A DNA stretch of 7,648 nt from Bacillota bacterium (GTDB lineage Bacteria; Bacillota; Sulfobacillia; JAJZYS01; JAJZLH01), in assembly GCA_021850485.1 (NCBI GenBank), contig JAJZLY010000020.1, positions 1-7,648 of the forward strand. The letters are read 5' to 3'. Shown piece after piece: positions 1-7,487 of this stretch. Within the stretch, counting starts at the first letter, position 1. Every line of letters begins with the position of its first letter. The translations under genes and the position numbers were made by a program. The notes under the pieces were generated by a model. The model did no database searches. It was not told where the DNA came from and saw only the letters and a program-made list of their open reading frames with translations.

Positions 1-510
1 AGCATCTGCGGGAATCCGGTGGACGGAGACGGTGAGGTCTGTGCCGACTGCATCGCCGACGGGCGGGTGGAGAAGGAGCTCAGCCGGCGCAAGTTTCTCA
101 GAAACAGTCTGATCGGGGCCATGGGCTTGTTCGGAGTCGGCTACCTGGGCTTGGCACTAAAGAATCTGTTCCCGGCCAGCGGCGCCCAGGGCACATTGCA
201 AAACATCGGACCGATCAGCCAGTTCACCAACAACTACACCTTGATCGACTACACCGGAGCCGGCTTCCCAGACGGGGTCTATGTCCGGCAGAAGTCACCC
301 GGCGTGATCCAGGCCTTCGACTTTCACTGCGCCCATCTGCAGTGCCCGGTGCAGTGGAACTCGAGTCTGAAGGAGTTCCAGTGCCCGTGCCACGGTTCAG
401 TCTATAACGCCAACGGCCAGCACATCGCCGGGCCGGCGCCGCGCGGACTGTGGTCACACGTGGTCAAGATCGCCAACGGCAACGTGTACATCGGGGGGCA
501 AATCGATTGA
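1..510 (+). CDS. qcrA: Rieske [2Fe-2S] protein with Tat signal and N-terminal zinc-ribbon remnant (5' end cut by window)
   Basis: This is the iron-sulfur subunit of a cytochrome bc/b6f-type complex, which passes electrons from quinol to a downstream acceptor on the outer face of the membrane. The frame is open from base 1, so the gene begins upstream; the GTG at 19 is not a convincing start because it would cut a cysteine motif. Counting codons from base 1, C3-G4 and C14-x-x-C17 look like the second half of a CxxC...CxxC zinc ribbon. A twin-arginine motif SRRKFL follows at 28-33 with a hydrophobic helix after it. Rieske box I is CAHLQC (110-115) and box II is CPCHGS (128-133): C110, H112, C128 and H131 bind the cluster, and C115/C130 form the usual disulfide. 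The Ser and Tyr of CPCHGSVY are those typical of high-potential clusters, and a GPAP proline loop is present. The stop overlaps the cytochrome b start. The Rieske assignment is secure; petC would be an equally fair symbol. Confidence 0.95.
   Translation, partial: SICGNPVDGDGEVCADCIADGRVEKELSRRKFLRNSLIGAMGLFGVGYLGLALKNLFPASGAQGTLQNIGPISQFTNNYTLIDYTGAGFPDGVYVRQKSPGVIQAFDFHCAHLQCPVQWNSSLKEFQCPCHGSVYNANGQHIAGPAPRGLWSHVVKIANGNVYIGGQID
493..498 (+). promoter_or_regulatory. Ribosome binding site for cytochrome b (TTG start)
   Basis: A run of six G lies eight bases before the TTG at 507. It supports translation from TTG, which overlaps the Rieske stop as TTGA and suggests translational coupling. An alternative GTG at 450 lies deep inside the Rieske gene and would add 19 residues with no counterpart in the family. 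Confidence 0.55.
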
Positions 511-1997
511 AGCCCGCCAACTGGGTGATCGACCGGATGGGAATCCGGTCGTTTCTCAATCTCCAGCTCTACCACCGGGTGCCGCGGCGGGTGAGTCCGC
601 TGGACTTCCTGGGCCTGGGCACACTGTTCATGTTCATCAATCAGGTGATCACCGGCATCATCCTGGCGACTTGGTACAACGCCTCGGTCAGCGGCGCCTA
701 CCAGAGCGTGCAGCGGATCATGCACACAGTCCCTCTGGGCTGGCTGATCCGGGACCTGCACTACTGGGGCGCCAACTTCATGGTGGTGCTGGTCTTCTTG
801 CACATGCTGCGCGGCTACTACATCGGCGCCTACCGCAAGCCCAGAGAGCTGGTCTGGTTGAGCGGCGTCGGGCTGCTCCTGATCACCATCTTGTTCTCGT
901 TCACCGGCTATCTGCTGCCCTGGGACCAGCAGTCCTACTGGGCGACGATGGTCGGCACCTGGATGCCCTTTTACATGCCGGTGATCGGCTATTACATCGT
1001 GCTTCTGATGCGCGGTGGCCCCTACATCACAGGCGTCACCCTGACCCGCTTTTACGCCATCCACGTCTTGGTCTTGCCAGCGCTGTTCCTGATGGTGTTC
1101 GGCCTGCACATGTACATGGTGCTGACCAAGCAGCTGACCATGGTGGAAGAGGCGGAGCAGCTGCCCCGGGACAAGCAAAAGGGCCTGGTCACCTTCTTCC
1201 CGACCACCGTGTTCCAGATGACCATGTTCTTGGTCATCCTGGCGGCGGCCTTGGCGTACTTTTCGATCAACTTCCACGCCCCACTGCTGGCCATCGCCGA
1301 CCCCCTGAACAAGGCCCACTATGTGCCGATTCCGCTGTGGTTCTTCTTCTCCATCTACCAGCTGTTGAAGTACATCCCGCCAGCGCTGGACGCCTTCGGC
1401 ATCATCGGGTTGCCCACCGTCGGCATCTTGCTTCTGGTGCTGCTTCCCTTCATCGACAAGATCCCGCACCGCAAGCCCTCTGAGCGCAAGGGCTACGTGT
1501 TCTCCGGTGGCGTGGTGGTGGCGGCGATCGCCGTGCTGACCTACCTGGGAGCGGTCAACCAGGGGGTGGCGGCGCCGGTGCAAGCGGCCAGCACCTATTT
1601 GGTCAGCAATGCAGCCACCAAGACGGCCACCCTCACCTTGCTCGGCGGCTATGGCACCGCCAACGGCGGGTTCAACTTCAACGGGGCCGCCAACGGGGCG
1701 ATGGTGGTGACCATTCCCCAGGGCTGGACCTTGGATGTGGTGTTCACCAACGACGGCAGCCTGAACCATTCGGCGGCGATCACGGCGTCTGCGACATCCA
1801 GTGCGCCGCTTTCGGCGGCGGATGAGACGTCAAACGCCGTGCTTGGCCAGGCCCCCGGTGCCAAGGGCAGCTTCACCTTCAAGGCCGCCACCGCCGGCAA
1901 CTTTGTGATCGCCTGCCTGGTCCCCGGGCACATCCAGCTGGGGATGTGGGCCAAGTTGGTGGTGGCCCCCAGCGGGGCGCCCAGTATCAAGCTCTGA
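507..1997 (+). CDS. qcrB: Cytochrome b (b6 + subunit IV type) fused to a C-terminal sulfocyanin-like blue-copper domain
   Basis: This is the membrane core of a quinol-oxidising complex, 496 residues from TTG 507. Residues about 34-205 are the four-helix b6 part. Heme ligand pairs are H85/H99 and H186/H201; the 14 and 15 spacings match cytochrome b6, whereas mitochondrial cytochrome b has 14 and 14. Family motifs GWLIRDLHYWGAN and GYLLPWDQ are present. Residues about 232-350 are the three-helix subunit IV part, with the Qo motif at 276-279 reading PLWF in place of PEWY. The position matching the heme-ci cysteine of b6 is F34, so that extra heme is not expected. After the last helix comes an Ala/Ser/Thr/Gly-rich linker and a cupredoxin domain (about 385-488) with type 1 copper ligands H421, C470, H475 and M480. 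Topology (seven helices, N-terminus inside) puts this domain outside, beside the Rieske head. The cytochrome b part is certain; the copper domain is strongly supported by its motifs. Confidence 0.93.
   Translation: MKPANWVIDRMGIRSFLNLQLYHRVPRRVSPLDFLGLGTLFMFINQVITGIILATWYNASVSGAYQSVQRIMHTVPLGWLIRDLHYWGANFMVVLVFLHMLRGYYIGAYRKPRELVWLSGVGLLLITILFSFTGYLLPWDQQSYWATMVGTWMPFYMPVIGYYIVLLMRGGPYITGVTLTRFYAIHVLVLPALFLMVFGLHMYMVLTKQLTMVEEAEQLPRDKQKGLVTFFPTTVFQMTMFLVILAAALAYFSINFHAPLLAIADPLNKAHYVPIPLWFFFSIYQLLKYIPPALDAFGIIGLPTVGILLLVLLPFIDKIPHRKPSERKGYVFSGGVVVAAIAVLTYLGAVNQGVAAPVQAASTYLVSNAATKTATLTLLGGYGTANGGFNFNGAANGAMVVTIPQGWTLDVVFTNDGSLNHSAAITASATSSAPLSAADETSNAVLGQAPGAKGSFTFKAATAGNFVIACLVPGHIQLGMWAKLVVAPSGAPSIKL
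1587..1994 (+). other. Sulfocyanin-like cupredoxin domain at the C-terminus of cytochrome b
   Basis: This part of the cytochrome b gene encodes residues 361-496. It shows the sulfocyanin (SoxE-like) pattern: FNFNGAANG, then IPQGWTLDVVFTN, then LNHS carrying the first copper histidine (codon 1767-1769). The C-terminal loop is ACLVPGHIQLGMW, carrying Cys (1914-1916), His (1929-1931) and Met (1944-1946). Spacing C-x4-H-x4-M is that of blue-copper proteins of this family. In archaeal SoxM-type systems sulfocyanin is a separate protein that takes electrons from a Rieske/cytochrome b pair; here it is in the same reading frame with no stop or frameshift. Electron transfer from the Rieske cluster to this copper is an inference from topology. 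Confidence 0.85.
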
Positions 1998-2092: not shown

Positions 2093-3322
2093 ATGACAAG
2101 CACGCTTCCAGCCGGTGGCGATCTGGTCGAGTTTGTCCAGGGCCAGATGCGCACACCGGATCATCCCCTGGTCGCCTTTATCGAGGGCGACGGCATCGGG
2201 ATCGACATTTGGCCAGCGACACGGGCCGTCACTGAGGCTGCGGTCCAGCGCGCCTATGGCCAACGGCGAAAGATCGTCTGGGTCGAGGTCTTGGCCGGCG
2301 AGAAAGCCAAGAAACTGACCGGCGGCTACCTGCCCGCTGCGACGCTGGACACCTTGCGCCGGGTCAAGGTCGGGATCAAGGGCCCGCTCACCACGCCGAT
2401 CGGCGGCGGCATCCGCTCGCTGAACGTGGCGCTGCGTCAAGAGCTGGATCTGTACGCCTGCGTTCGCCCGGTGCGCTACTACCAAGGCGTGCCGAGCCCG
2501 CTCAAGCACCCGGAGCAGGTGGACATGGTGATCTACCGGGAGAACACGGAAGACGTCTATGCGGGCATCGAATGGCCGTCAGGGTCCGCAGAGTCGGCCC
2601 TGTTGATCGGCACCTTGAAAGATCACCTCGGAGTGCGCATCGATCCGCAATCGGGCATCGGCATCAAGCCGATCAGCCCGAACGCCTCCAAGCGTTTGGT
2701 ACGACGCGCAATTGCCTATGCCATCGAGGCGCATCGCCGCTCGGTGACATTGGTGCACAAGGGCAACATCCAAAAGTTTACCGAGGGCGCGTTCAGGGAC
2801 TGGGGATACGAGGTAGCTGCTGAGTTTCCGGGACGGGTGGTCTTGGAGCAAGAGCTCAATGGGCCGCCGCCGGACGGAGTGGTCGTGATCAAGGACCGGA
2901 TCGCCGATAATATGTTCCAGCAGGTGCTCTTGCACCCAGAAGCCTACGACGTGATCGCCACCACCAACCTCAATGGTGACTATCTGTCTGACGCCATTGC
3001 CGCCGAGGTGGGCGGGATCGGCATGGCGCCGGGAGCCAACTTGTCAGACCAGGCGGCGGTGTTCGAGGCCACCCATGGCACCGCACCGCGCCATGCCGGC
3101 AAAGACGAAGCCAACCCGGGCAGCCTGATGCTATCGGCCGTGATGATGCTGCAAGCCATGGGCTGGCAAGAGGCGGCGAAGATCTTGGAAGATTCGCTGG
3201 CCAAATCTATCGCTGACGGCATCGTCACCTACGATCTGGTCCGGCCGGGCGCGACTCGGGTGGCTACCTCCGAGTTCGCCAGAGCGATGATCGCCCGCAT
3301 GCAGGACATGGGAGGGAACTGA
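2093..3322 (+). CDS. icd: Isocitrate dehydrogenase, E. coli-like, probably NADP-dependent
   Basis: It oxidatively decarboxylates isocitrate to 2-oxoglutarate in the cytoplasm. The 409 residues align along their whole length with E. coli Icd (416). The substrate loop [17 protein letters not shown] contains S109, equivalent to the regulatory Ser113. Substrate residues N111, R115, R125, R149, Y156 and K223 are present, and metal ligands D272, D296 and D300 are in place (LNGDYLSD at 293-300). In the cofactor pocket the usual Lys-Tyr pair of NADP enzymes is R333-H334, while Y380 and R384, which contact the 2'-phosphate in E. coli, are kept. NAD-type enzymes typically carry Asp-Ile at that pair, so NADP is more likely, but this is inferred. 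The start is ATG with a good ribosome site. The stop is separated from mdh by one base. No aceK (Icd kinase/phosphatase) is in the window, so regulation at S109 cannot be judged. Confidence 0.97.
3311..3316 (+). promoter_or_regulatory. Ribosome binding site of mdh
   Basis: GGAGGG sits inside the last codons of icd, seven bases before the ATG at 3324. With TGA-g-ATG spacing it suggests that ribosomes finishing icd re-initiate on mdh. Confidence 0.65.
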
Positions 3323-3323
3323 G

Positions 3324-4256
3324 ATGACCAAGCGCCCGAAGGTGACCCTGGTCGGAGCCGGTAACGTGGGAGCGACGACGGGCATGTGGCTGATGGCCCG
3401 AAATCTGTGCGATCTGGTGCTGTTCGATGTGGTCGAAGGCTGGCCGCAGGGCAAGGCCCTGGATCTGGCGGAGGCGGCACCGATCTTCGGCCACACCGTG
3501 TCTGTGACCGGCACCAACGACTTTGCCGAGACGGCGGGCTCGGATGTGCTGGTGGTCACGGCTGGATCGCCGAGACGGCCTGGCATGACGCGCGACGACC
3601 TGCTGAAGGTGAACAACGATGTGATCTCAGACGTGGTGACCAGAGCCGTGGCGGTGTCTCCAGAAGCGGTCGTGATTGTGGTCACCAATCCGGTGGATGT
3701 GATGACCTTCGTCGCCCAGCGGGCGTCCGGTCTGCCTCATCCGCGGGTGTTTGGCATGGCCGGCGGCCTGGATTCTGCCCGTTTTCGCACCTTTTTGGCG
3801 TGGGAGTTGGGCGTCAGCGCCAAAGATGTGTTCGGCTTCGTGATGGGTGGCCACGGCGATCAGATGGTGCCCCTGGTCCGCTACTCCACGGTGGGTGGCG
3901 AGCCGGTCGAGAAGCGCCTCTCCAAAGAGGCGATCGACCGGATCGTGACCCGCACCCGCGGCGGCGGCGGCGAGATCTTGCAGCTACTGAAGAATGGCTC
4001 TGCATTCGTAGCCCCGGCTGCAGCGACCGCTGAGATGGTCGAGGCTGTGCTGCTCGACCAGCGCCGGACGATTCCGGTGGTGGCCTACTTGAATGGTGAG
4101 TACGGACAGCAGGGCGTCTACGTTGGGGTGCCGGCTGTGATCGGCAAGGGTGGCGTCGAGCAGGTGGTCGAGATCGACTTGCAGCCGGACGAGCAGGCGG
4201 CCTTCGACGCCTCCGTCGCGGCGGTCAGGGGTCCTTTGGCGGTGTTGGGCTTCTGA
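3324..4256 (+). CDS. mdh: Malate dehydrogenase, LDH-like family, NAD-dependent
   Basis: It interconverts malate and oxaloacetate with NAD(H). The 310-residue length is typical of LDH-like bacterial MDH. The Rossmann motif GAGNVG is at 11-16 and is followed by D35 at the end of the second strand, which favours NAD over NADP. The mobile loop SPRRPGMTR (82-90) carries the arginines that select malate/oxaloacetate; lactate dehydrogenases have Gln at the key site. TNPVD (121-125), LDSAR with R153, and GGHGDQMVP with catalytic H177 complete the active site. The usual GMAGVLDS reads GMAGGLDS here, a mild change. The gene sits one base after icd, and its TGA overlaps the inferred CTG start of the malic enzyme. 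Its place between icd and a malic enzyme gene fits a role at the malate branch point. Confidence 0.97.
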   Translation: MTKRPKVTLVGAGNVGATTGMWLMARNLCDLVLFDVVEGWPQGKALDLAEAAPIFGHTVSVTGTNDFAETAGSDVLVVTAGSPRRPGMTRDDLLKVNNDVISDVVTRAVAVSPEAVVIVVTNPVDVMTFVAQRASGLPHPRVFGMAGGLDSARFRTFLAWELGVSAKDVFGFVMGGHGDQMVPLVRYSTVGGEPVEKRLSKEAIDRIVTRTRGGGGEILQLLKNGSAFVAPAAATAEMVEAVLLDQRRTIPVVAYLNGEYGQQGVYVGVPAVIGKGGVEQVVEIDLQPDEQAAFDASVAAVRGPLAVLGF

Positions 4257-5512
4257 GCCGGCACTGGCTGAGCCGAGAGCGCGCCCTGCGCTATCACAGC
4301 GAGCGGCGGGGCAAGATTGAAATCGCCGCCAAGATGCCGGTCGACGACATGGATGATCTGTCTCTCGCCTACACCCCGGGGGTGGCCGAACCGTGCCGGG
4401 AGATCCATGCCCACCCAGAACAGGTCTTCACTTACACCAATCGGGCCAATCAAGTGGCTATCTTGACAGACGGATCGGCTGTGCTGGGTTTGGGCGATAT
4501 CGGGCCCGAGGCCTCGCTGCCTGTGATGGAAGGCAAGTCGGTGTTATTCAAGCGATTTGGCGGCGTGGACGCCTTTCCCATCTTGGTCCGCAGCCAAGAT
4601 CCAGACGACATCTGCCGGGTGATGGAGCTGATCGAGCCTGGTTTTGGCGGCGTCAACATTGAGGATATCGCTGCCCCGCGCTGTTTTGCGGTGGAACGCC
4701 GCCTGAAGGCGTCTCTGACGGTGCCTGTTTTCAACGACGACCAGCACGGCACGGCCATCGTGGTGGGCGCTGCCTTCATCAATGCGGTACAGGTGACCAA
4801 CAAGACGTTGGCAGAGGTGCGGGTGGTGATCAACGGCGCTGGAGCTGCCGGCATCGCCGTGGCCCGAATGCTGCTCAATCTGGGCGTCAAGGACCTGTCC
4901 CTGGTCGACCGCAGTGGCCTGATCTGGAGCGGACGGCCGGGCCTCAATCCGGAGAAAGAAGAGATCGCACAGCACACCAACCTGGAGCACCAAGCGGGCG
5001 ACTTGACCCAGGCCGTGCGCGGCGCCGACGTACTGATCGGCCTGTCCGTCGCTGGCGCCTTCACCATGGAGATGTTGGCGGGGATGCGGCCCGGTGCCAT
5101 CGTCTTTGCGTTGGCCAATCCGGTGCCGGAAATCTGGCCGGTGCAGGCCCTGGAAGTGGGGGCGGCAGTGGTCGGCACGGGTCGGTCTGACTTCCCCAAT
5201 CAGATCAATAACGTGCTGGGGTTCCCCGGCGTGTTTCGCGGGAGCTTAGACGTGCGAGCCCGCCAGATCAGTGCCGGCATGCACCAGGCGGCGTCACTCG
5301 CTATTTCTGATCTGGTCGGCGACGAGCTGCGCCCCGACTACATCATCCCCTCGCCGTTGGATGGCCGGGTGGCACCGGCGGTGGCCGAGGCGGTGGCCCG
5401 GGCGGCGCTCGCTGAAGGCTTGGCCACCGTGACCGATCTCGATCCCAAGGAGATTGGCCGCCGTCTCGCCGAGTTGACCGGGGCCCAAGAAAAAGGAGGG
5501 GATCTCAACTGA
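4253..5512 (+). CDS. Malic enzyme, short form, inferred CTG start
   Basis: It decarboxylates malate to pyruvate and reduces NAD(P). From ATG 4334 the protein would lack the conserved N-terminus. The in-frame codons upstream encode ALRYHSERRGKIEI, which matches malic enzyme N-termini, and there is no ATG, GTG or TTG before them. CTG 4253, embedded in the mdh stop (CTGA), gives 419 residues; CTG 4268 is the alternative. Catalytic Tyr is Y40 in LSLAYTPGVAEPC and Lys is K95 in GKSVLFK. Metal ligands are E137-D138 (NIEDIAAPR) and D162/D163 (NDDQHGTA). The nucleotide site is NGAGAAG (194-200) with D219 in LVDRSG, which leans towards NAD, though cofactor preference in this family is hard to read. 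There is no C-terminal phosphotransacetylase-like domain, so this is not the long MaeB type. The 3' end carries the sucC ribosome site and its stop overlaps the sucC start. The family is certain; the exact start is inferred. Confidence 0.9.
   Translation: MSRHWLSRERALRYHSERRGKIEIAAKMPVDDMDDLSLAYTPGVAEPCREIHAHPEQVFTYTNRANQVAILTDGSAVLGLGDIGPEASLPVMEGKSVLFKRFGGVDAFPILVRSQDPDDICRVMELIEPGFGGVNIEDIAAPRCFAVERRLKASLTVPVFNDDQHGTAIVVGAAFINAVQVTNKTLAEVRVVINGAGAAGIAVARMLLNLGVKDLSLVDRSGLIWSGRPGLNPEKEEIAQHTNLEHQAGDLTQAVRGADVLIGLSVAGAFTMEMLAGMRPGAIVFALANPVPEIWPVQALEVGAAVVGTGRSDFPNQINNVLGFPGVFRGSLDVRARQISAGMHQAASLAISDLVGDELRPDYIIPSPLDGRVAPAVAEAVARAALAEGLATVTDLDPKEIGRRLAELTGAQEKGGDLN
5491..5501 (+). promoter_or_regulatory. 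Strong ribosome binding site that fixes the CTG start of sucC
   Basis: AAAAGGAGGGG is close to a perfect anti-16S match. Its GGAGG core ends nine bases before CTG 5509. From here the TTG at 5542 would be more than 40 bases away, so this site argues for the CTG. Confidence 0.75.
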
Positions 5513-6621
5513 GGCTGTACGAGTATCTGGCCAAGGCCGCGTTGCGCGAGGCCAAGATTCCGGTGCCAGAGGGACGACTGGCCACCACCGTGGACGAGGT
5601 GGTGGCTGCCGTAGAGGCGATCGGACCGTCGGCGGTCAAGGCTCAGGTCTTGGTCGGCGGCCGAGGCAAGGCCGGAGGCATCCGCTTTGCCGAGACCCGG
5701 CAGGAGGCGGAAACGGTCGGGCGCGCCATCTTGGGCATGGACCTCAAAGGCTATCGGGTGGAGCGCGTGTATGTGGAGCAAAAATTAGCCGTGGAGGCGG
5801 AGTACTACTTATCGGTGACCGTGGACCGCAGCGCCCGCAAGCCGCTGATCATGGCCTCGGCCAAGGGTGGCATCGAGATCGAGGACGTGGCCGAAGGGGA
5901 TTTGGTTCGCCGCCACGTCGACCTGTCTTTTGGCCTGCCCACCTATCTGTGCCAAGAAATCGCAGCCGAAATGGGGCTTGTCGGCGATGAGGCCAAGCAG
6001 GTGGCCACCATCATCGGTCGGCTGTACGAGGTTTTTCGCCACACGGATGCCGAGCTGGTCGAGATCAACCCACTGGTGCGGTGCGGCGGCCGGATCATCG
6101 CCGCCGACGCCAGGTTGAACATCGACGATAGCGCCCTATTCCGCCAGGGCGACTTGCCGGCAGTCGAGGAAGGCACGGCACTTGAGAAAAAAGTTCACGC
6201 CATTGGACTTGCCTACGTGGAGCTAGACGGCGACGTGGCGATCATGGCCAACGGTGCTGGCATGTCGATGGCGACCTTGGATGCCGTGCAGCATTTCGGC
6301 GGCGCACCGGCCAACTTTCTCGACGCCGGTGGTGGGGCCAGTGTCGAACCGACCGCCCAGGCCATCGAAGTGTTGCTCGAGATGAAGCCTAAGGTGATCC
6401 TGATCAACATTTTCGGTGGCATCACGCGCTGTGACGACGTCGCCAAGGCGATCACGCAGGTCAAGACCAGCCGCGGCATCCCGGTGCCGTTGGTGGTGCG
6501 ATTGGCCGGCACCAACGAACAGGCGGGGATTGAGATCTTGCAAGCCCAGGGCATTCAAGCCTACCGGGACATGGATCAAGCAGCTCGAGAAGCAGTACGG
6601 CTGAGCCAAGGAGGTGCGTGA
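5509..6621 (+). CDS. sucC: Succinyl-CoA synthetase (ADP/GDP-forming), beta subunit; CTG start
   Basis: It is the nucleotide-binding ATP-grasp subunit of the enzyme that couples succinyl-CoA/succinate conversion to ATP or GTP. A CTG at 5509, overlapping the malic enzyme stop as CTGA, gives 370 residues beginning MRLYEYLAKAALREAKIPVP, the expected SucC N-terminus. The TTG at 5542 would remove this LYEY segment. The grasp motif QVLVGGRGKAGGIRF is at 46-60. Magnesium/nucleotide residues are E185 and N187 in VEINPLV and D200 in AADARLN. The C-terminal ligase domain shows NGAGMSMATLD (248-258), LDAGGGAS (261-268) and IFGGITRCD (301-309). ATP versus GTP preference cannot be read with confidence. The last codons carry the sucD ribosome site, and the stop overlaps the sucD ATG by one base (TGATG). 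MtkA-type malate-CoA ligase is the main alternative; the shorter length and lack of its insertions favour SucC. Confidence 0.95.
   Translation: MRLYEYLAKAALREAKIPVPEGRLATTVDEVVAAVEAIGPSAVKAQVLVGGRGKAGGIRFAETRQEAETVGRAILGMDLKGYRVERVYVEQKLAVEAEYYLSVTVDRSARKPLIMASAKGGIEIEDVAEGDLVRRHVDLSFGLPTYLCQEIAAEMGLVGDEAKQVATIIGRLYEVFRHTDAELVEINPLVRCGGRIIAADARLNIDDSALFRQGDLPAVEEGTALEKKVHAIGLAYVELDGDVAIMANGAGMSMATLDAVQHFGGAPANFLDAGGGASVEPTAQAIEVLLEMKPKVILINIFGGITRCDDVAKAITQVKTSRGIPVPLVVRLAGTNEQAGIEILQAQGIQAYRDMDQAAREAVRLSQGGA
6608..6614 (+). promoter_or_regulatory. Ribosome binding site of sucD
   Basis: AAGGAGG ends six bases before ATG 6621 but only three before GTG 6618. The spacing and the homology of MGILIDRSTRILVQGITG both favour the ATG. 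Confidence 0.7.
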
Positions 6622-7487
6622 TGGGCATCTTGATCGACCGCTCCACGCGCATCTTGGTCCAGGGGATCACCGGTAATCAGGGCTCGTTTCACGCCGGTCA
6701 GATGGTCGCCTACGGCACGCAGGTCGTGGCCGGCACCTCTCCGGGCAAGGGCGGCAGCGTGCACCACGGTGTACCGGTCTTCGATCGAGTGCGCGATGCG
6801 GTCGAAGAGACGGGTGCCAGTGCGTCCGTGATGTTTGTTCCGGCCCCGTTCGCCAAGGACGCCGCCTTCGAGGCGCTGGCCGCCGGCATCAAGCTGCTGG
6901 TGATGGTCCCTGAGCATGTACCAGTCCAAGACACCATCGCCATCTTGGAGTATGCACGCTACCAAGGGGCGCTGGTGCTCGGACCCAACACCTTCGGGCT
7001 GATCACGGCCGGCCAGGCCAAGATGGGGATTCCGCCCAATCACATCTTCCAGCCCGGCCCGATCGGCATCGTCGCCCGGTCCGGCACCCTCTCCTACGAG
7101 ATCGCCGACGCCCTGACCAGAGCCGGGCTGGGCCAGACCACAGCCGTCGGCATGGGCGGCGACCCCGTGGCCGGACAGACGTTCAACGAGATCTTGCATC
7201 GCTTTGCGCAAGATCCGCAGACGGAGCTGGTGGTCATGGTGGGCGAGATTGGCGGCAGTGCCGAAGAAGAAGCCGCCAGCTTCATTCAGCAGATGAATAA
7301 GCCTGTGGTGGCCTATCTGGCGGGCAAGGCTGCACCGGTCGGCAAGCGAATGGGGCACGCCGGCGCCATCATCGAGCGCGGCCGTGGGACGTTGGAGTCC
7401 AAACGGCAAGCCTTGGAAGCCGCTGGCGCCACCGTGGTGGAGATGCCGTGGGACGTGGTGCCGGCCGTCCGCAGGCGCTTGGCCTGA
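6621..7487 (+). CDS. sucD: Succinyl-CoA synthetase, alpha subunit
   Basis: It carries the CoA site and the phosphorylated histidine of succinyl-CoA synthetase and works as a heteromer with SucC. The 288 residues match the family's usual length. CoA-binding motifs ITGNQGSFH (16-24) and TSPGKGG (39-45) are at the N-terminus. GEIGGSAEEEAA (208-219) and GHAGAI with active-site H246 are intact. The segment usually read as GPNCPG is GPNTFG at 121-126, so the cysteine near the active site (Cys123 in E. coli) is T124 and the next residue is F125, while SRSGTL is nearly kept as ARSGTL (152-156). This may tune the substrate pocket, or may be a lineage trait. ATG 6621 is preferred to GTG 6618 by ribosome-site spacing. 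It is the last gene of the operon; a hairpin begins within its stop codon. Confidence 0.95.
   Translation: MGILIDRSTRILVQGITGNQGSFHAGQMVAYGTQVVAGTSPGKGGSVHHGVPVFDRVRDAVEETGASASVMFVPAPFAKDAAFEALAAGIKLLVMVPEHVPVQDTIAILEYARYQGALVLGPNTFGLITAGQAKMGIPPNHIFQPGPIGIVARSGTLSYEIADALTRAGLGQTTAVGMGGDPVAGQTFNEILHRFAQDPQTELVVMVGEIGGSAEEEAASFIQQMNKPVVAYLAGKAAPVGKRMGHAGAIIERGRGTLESKRQALEAAGATVVEMPWDVVPAVRRRLA

Follow-up and report, generated by a model that had tools for sequence, protein, structure and literature searches.

The c-type haem outlet of bacterial bc complexes is usually regarded as a fixed part of them. The locus analysed here raises the question of whether a Rieske/cytochrome b complex can dispense with that haem and release its electrons through a covalently attached copper centre. 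The window, i.e., the whole stretch of 7,648 nucleotides under analysis, is an entire 7.6-kb contig (C10) from the 1.61-Mb draft genome of a member of the Bacillota (G000).

The fused gene and its domains

The following features were mapped in the window:

1-510, + strand: Rieske [2Fe-2S] protein, 5′ end missing at the contig edge (Pfam PF00355, E = 4.2e-9)
507-1997, + strand: fusion of cytochrome b and sulfocyanin, 496 aa, with a TTG start codon that overlaps the stop codon of the Rieske gene (ORF and Pfam)
582-1121, + strand: cytochrome b N-terminal (b6-like) domain, residues 26-205 (PF00033 Cytochrome_B, E = 1.2e-46)
759-1109, + strand: putative haem b ligands His85, His99, His186 and His201 (sequence positions; b6-type spacing 14/15 on two helices)
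1299-1559, + strand: cytochrome b C-terminal (subunit IV-like) domain, residues 265-351 (PF00032 Cytochrom_B_C, E = 1.1e-7)
1332-1343, + strand: Qo-site motif PLWF replacing PEWY, residues 276-279 (alignment with class members)
1497-1598, + strand: last transmembrane helix (residues 331-349) and short linker (hydropathy; sliding identity to the relative G005)
1599-1967, + strand: sulfocyanin (SoxE) cupredoxin domain, residues 365-487 (PF06525, E = 1.4e-17; rusticyanin profile match, E = 4e-10)
1767-1769, + strand: predicted copper ligand His421 (alignment to rusticyanin ligands)
1914-1946, + strand: predicted copper ligands Cys470 (1914-1916), His475 (1929-1931) and Met480 (1944-1946), within CLVPGHIQLGM (alignment)

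The first-pass annotation had read the second of these as one uninterrupted frame running from a cytochrome b into a cupredoxin with four copper ligands, H421, C470, H475 and M480. The frame is indeed open over 496 codons and recurs on an independent contig, the ligand positions are exact, and a domain search of the 496-residue product, which had been proposed as a check, found Cytochrome_B, Cytochrom_B_C and SoxE by Pfam; besides PF00033 and PF00032, PF13631 also scored above its cut-off. The fusion is co-encoded with the Rieske subunit, whose gene it overlaps and of which a complete homologue exists in the sister species (L033, 5468-6004). On the 3′ side, the window holds a run of TCA-cycle genes identified by Pfam (2093-7487), which encode isocitrate dehydrogenase, malate dehydrogenase, malic enzyme and succinyl-CoA ligase beta and alpha (icd, mdh, sucCD).

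In the cytochrome b half, H85, H99, H186 and H201 were assigned as the haem b ligands through the established b6 numbering. The PLWF motif is common to the fusion and to the haem-c relatives of family f4, and other class members carry PAWY, PLWY, PVWY, PIWY or PPWY. Because f4 relatives share PLWF and the other members also lack the glutamate, this residue of the Qo site seems dispensable in the group. The first helix has no cysteine, which rules out a covalently bound haem ci there. The complex does not meet the criterion for a bc1, b6f or Qcr bcc complex, namely a c-type cytochrome in the complex, since the fusion protein contains no CxxCH and the genome gave no match to cytochrome c families or to CcsA/CcmC-type genes.

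The SoxE domain scores 64.1 bits against PF06525, for which the cut-off is 21. Its ligand positions align with the copper ligands of the solved rusticyanin 2cak in a single-sequence search (E = 4e-6, over the ligand-bearing part), and with a profile built from 11 related domains the E-values were 4e-10 for rusticyanin and about 1e-15 for copper nitrite reductases. C470 is the single cysteine of the whole fusion protein. The stretch GFNFNGAAN corresponds to the FNFNG motif of sulfocyanins, for which the form FNFNGTS has been named (PMC3750248). The NCBIfam equivalog model for archaeal sulfocyanin, TIGR03094, gave only 51.1 bits, far under its cut-off of 168.4, and we therefore regard this as a diverged SoxE domain and not as the archaeal equivalog. 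AlphaFold models neither support nor refute a cupredoxin fold because the underlying alignments were shallow: the whole-protein model (7 sequences) had a mean pLDDT of 52, with the cytochrome b part alone matching solved cytochrome b, and the SoxE-domain model (4 sequences) had a mean pLDDT of 58 and no cupredoxin match. The predicted fold rests on sequence homology, and both the type 1 copper occupancy and the redox potential of the domain are inferred, without biochemistry.

A window that is a whole 7.6-kb contig from a draft assembly could owe a fusion to faulty assembly or binning, a reading that we consider hardly credible. An intact fusion, 93% identical end to end, is present in the sister species (G002) on an independent 193,510-bp contig (JAKAUI010000045.1), which rules out an assembly artefact, chimera or frameshift. 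A third genome (G001) has two more copies, L110 (G001:C3) and L111 (G001:C39), both of them fragments that begin at residue 309, where their contigs start, with 85% and 76% identity over the visible part. Synonymous differences are frequent and yet the frame is maintained. All four copper ligands are invariant across the 4/4 fused copies. Between G000 and G002, the cytochrome b part has a dN/dS of 0.075 and the SoxE part one of 0.15, and comparisons with G001 gave 0.18 and 0.29 for the latter; both halves of the fusion are under purifying selection. The surroundings of the G001 copies differ: TCA-cycle genes follow one of them, and next to the other come genes for a response regulator and a further protein with a copper motif.

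Haem-c relatives and the position of the copper domain

The annotation had further proposed that the tethered copper stands in for a c-type haem. Comparison within the order strongly supports this. Orthologous cytochromes b (families f2-f4, 49-66% identity) in nine same-order genomes show the same last helix and short linker leading into a mono-haem cytochrome c, which has a single CxxCH and stands at the position that the copper domain occupies in the fusion, and the genus with the fusion has no detectable cytochrome c or CcsA/CcmC-type gene. Three further genomes of the order, all fragmented, yielded no cytochrome b-c gene. The same layout is found in 12 other genomes of the class and in one Nitrospirae MAG. 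In G005, the C-terminal domain of the cytochrome b is a Pfam Cytochrome_CBB3 match; identity between this protein and the fusion is about 50-60% in the last helix and falls to background level past residues 353-360. The locus itself is orthologous: in G002 as in G005, a gene for an Mrp-type ATPase precedes those for Rieske and cytochrome b. Identity of the fusion cytochrome b to family f4 reaches 65-66%. A tree of the cytochromes b places the copper pair next to f4, as its sister, within the haem-c group (100/98). Since the copper pair is nested in that group, haem c is inferred to be ancestral.

An outer-face location of the copper domain had also been claimed from helix counting. It stands on two grounds: three helices follow the b6 part, and the domain is homologous in position to the cytochrome c of the relatives, whose maturation is possible only outside.

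It is possible in principle that the tethered domain is off the main electron path, as a copper store, sensor or relic, and that a separate carrier takes the Rieske electrons. A stand-alone sulfocyanin lipoprotein that could do so is present in all three fusion genomes (3/3; the G000 copy lies at C2:64024-64476), and the SoxE part evolves about two times faster than the cytochrome b part. However, the ligands are conserved in every one of the four fused copies, dN/dS of the SoxE part stays at 0.15-0.29, and the domain sits exactly where relatives have their haem c domain. We therefore hold an off-path role to be very improbable and retain the reading of the domain as a redox outlet of the complex.

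The remaining respiratory chain and the direction of electron flow

Family searches returned zero matches in G000, G001 and G002 to each of four families that are widespread in their order relatives: PF01578 (Cytochrom_C_asm: CcsA/CcmC/CcmF; 12/12 relatives), PF00034 (Cytochrom_C; 11/12), PF13442 (Cytochrome_CBB3; 12/12) and PF01654 (cytochrome bd; 12/12). These absences of c-type cytochromes, maturation genes and bd rest on family searches in genomes that are all drafts, at least one of them a MAG, with completeness of 96-97%. ResB is nearly without matches across the whole order and is uninformative here. The gene next to the fusion is that for isocitrate dehydrogenase; where the qcr gene was located, in nine relatives, a PF01578 gene follows downstream at a distance of about 2-3.6 kb.

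The aa3 oxidase is complete, with COX1, COX3, COX4, CtaA, CtaG and Sco present. Its subunit II retains the CuA motif CAQFCGVGHYxM in the three fusion genomes; a quinol oxidase was considered and is ruled out by these retained ligands. What subunit II lacks in G000, G001 and G002 is the C-terminal cytochrome c domain; among the relatives examined, all recovered subunit II sequences have it. With haem c swapped for copper in cytochrome b and deleted from subunit II, both complexes are now without it. On the 193-kb contig of G002, the COX operon lies about 19 kb from the fusion, and the stand-alone sulfocyanin is also there. COX1 is present once each in G000 and G001, and G002 has two additional divergent ones. 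The contigs of these extra genes (L150:1293-2777 and G002:C57:9430-10683), which are absent in G000 and G001, also carry a Sco gene.

Our preferred reading, to which we assign a probability of about 0.8, is that the fusion serves as cytochrome b in a Rieske/cytochrome b complex that oxidises menaquinol, and that a sulfocyanin domain took over the very place of the ancestral mono-haem cytochrome c, with electrons running from Rieske through copper to CuA; the electron path, copper binding and direction are inferred. Menaquinol would be oxidised at Qo, one electron going to the Rieske cluster and one through the haems b. On the outer face, the Rieske head would then approach the tethered type 1 copper and hand over its electron, which may pass on to CuA of the aa3 oxidase either directly or via the stand-alone sulfocyanin lipoprotein. 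Menaquinone as the quinone is an assumption based on the phylum.

As the main alternative, the copper domain could be an entry port, fed by Fe(II) or by a carrier that Fe(II) has reduced, while the complex runs uphill to menaquinone. The class contains Sulfobacillus, where sulfocyanin is linked to iron oxidation and in which S. thermosulfidooxidans expresses it strongly on ferrous iron (PMC4062416), so flow through the fusion complex could be reversed; for strain AMDSBA4, a bc complex has been proposed to work in reverse transfer (PMC6803676). However, the orthologous complexes have an ordinary cytochrome c outlet, the CuA-bearing aa3 oxidase depends on a donor other than quinol, for which no other candidate turned up, and the fusion gene lies among TCA-cycle genes, which is consistent with heterotrophic forward flow. 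For these reasons we consider entry from Fe(II) unlikely, and we keep forward flow from menaquinol to the oxidase as the working hypothesis.

The copper swap apparently took place because this lineage has lost both the c-type cytochromes and the apparatus for making them. The fusion genomes are reduced, at 1.5-1.6 Mb vs. 2.0-3.5 Mb elsewhere in the order, and the loss of c-type cytochromes, CcsA/CcmC-type genes and bd would leave this complex as the main route to oxygen, apparently the sole one in two of the three genomes. It is probable, in our judgement, that the organisms run a menaquinol-to-oxygen chain free of c-type haem, brought about by exact replacement of haem c by copper on cytochrome b, deletion of haem c from subunit II and loss of maturation genes, and that this cytochrome b is the first of its kind.

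Known systems and the origin of the copper domain

Copper carriers have been placed next to Rieske/cytochrome b complexes before. In the SoxM supercomplex of Sulfolobus acidocaldarius, electrons go from Rieske/cytochrome b to the sulfocyanin SoxE and then to the oxidase, with copper instead of cytochrome c (PMC3750248, PMC3062577). The position of sulfocyanin between the two complexes is alike, but SoxE is there a separate polypeptide, whereas here it is fused, the host is bacterial and the oxidase genes are elsewhere; a SoxE that is separate and clustered with oxidase genes, the mark of a SoxM-type system, is thus not what we find. For complex III of Nitrososphaerales and Ca. Angelarchaeales, whose locus encodes no cytochrome c, a plastocyanin-like carrier has been posited in place of soluble cytochrome c (PMC9038741). 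Again a blue copper carrier stands in for cytochrome c, but its gene is separate and upstream of Rieske, the cupredoxin is of a different type and the hosts are archaea.

Also close in architecture are the cytochrome b-c fusions of the order and class, and Bacillus-type QcrC, which likewise have one covalently attached outer redox domain and a Rieske gene just upstream; those of the order and class also share the cytochrome b, last helix and linker. In place of a cupredoxin, they have a mono-haem cytochrome c with CxxCH attached, and they occur in genomes with CcsA/CcmC-type genes and c-type cytochromes. The class also has lipoproteins in which a sulfocyanin is fused to an electron carrier (in G098, G099, G102, G111, G132 and G133), but these combine haem c and copper in one lipoprotein, without cytochrome b.

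What is new, and is real and well explained by comparison, is a Rieske/cytochrome b complex with copper, not haem c, as its covalently attached outlet. No cytochrome b-SoxE fusion was found outside the genus among 154 genomes of the class, and a SoxE search of a 398-genome sample of the phylum gave no other candidates. A peptide-pattern scan of an 84,980-species collection, which reaches close relatives only, matched the sister species alone. A literature search found no published cytochrome b-cupredoxin fusion, subscription papers being mostly outside its scope. To our knowledge, this would be the first cytochrome b known to have a type 1 copper centre joined to it covalently. Close orthologues with haem or copper at one site amount to a natural swap experiment on what an outlet requires in potential, reach and docking. 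The case also bears on how the loss of c-type cytochromes can be survived by both the Rieske/cytochrome b complex and the aa3 oxidase of a lineage, and the fusion supplies a genomic marker of haem-c-free respiration among relatives of Sulfobacillus.

In the SoxE tree, the four fused domains form one clade (100/99), which groups with the stand-alone sulfocyanins of the genus and the cytochrome c-sulfocyanin lipoproteins of the class (84/91 and 90/81). A first tree had suggested that the fused domain arose as a duplicate of the stand-alone sulfocyanin found in the genus itself; we rejected this when, with more class members included, the cytochrome c-sulfocyanin lipoproteins joined the clade (SoxE of 5/6). 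With these inside the same clade, the donor of the fused domain is unresolved. The stand-alone lipoprotein of the genus (L159:4015-4653, - strand) may itself be a cytochrome c-sulfocyanin lipoprotein minus its haem domain, as judged from the tree and a low-complexity linker after the lipobox. The six cytochrome c-sulfocyanin lipoproteins carry a mono-haem domain and a copper domain in one chain (L131, L132, L134, L138, L140 and L142, on G098:C86, G099:C6, G102:C92, G111:C77, G132:C102 and G133:C88, respectively). In G102 and G132 the gene adjoins one for a membrane protein that is DoxX-like by eye, the G102 copy having no Pfam match.
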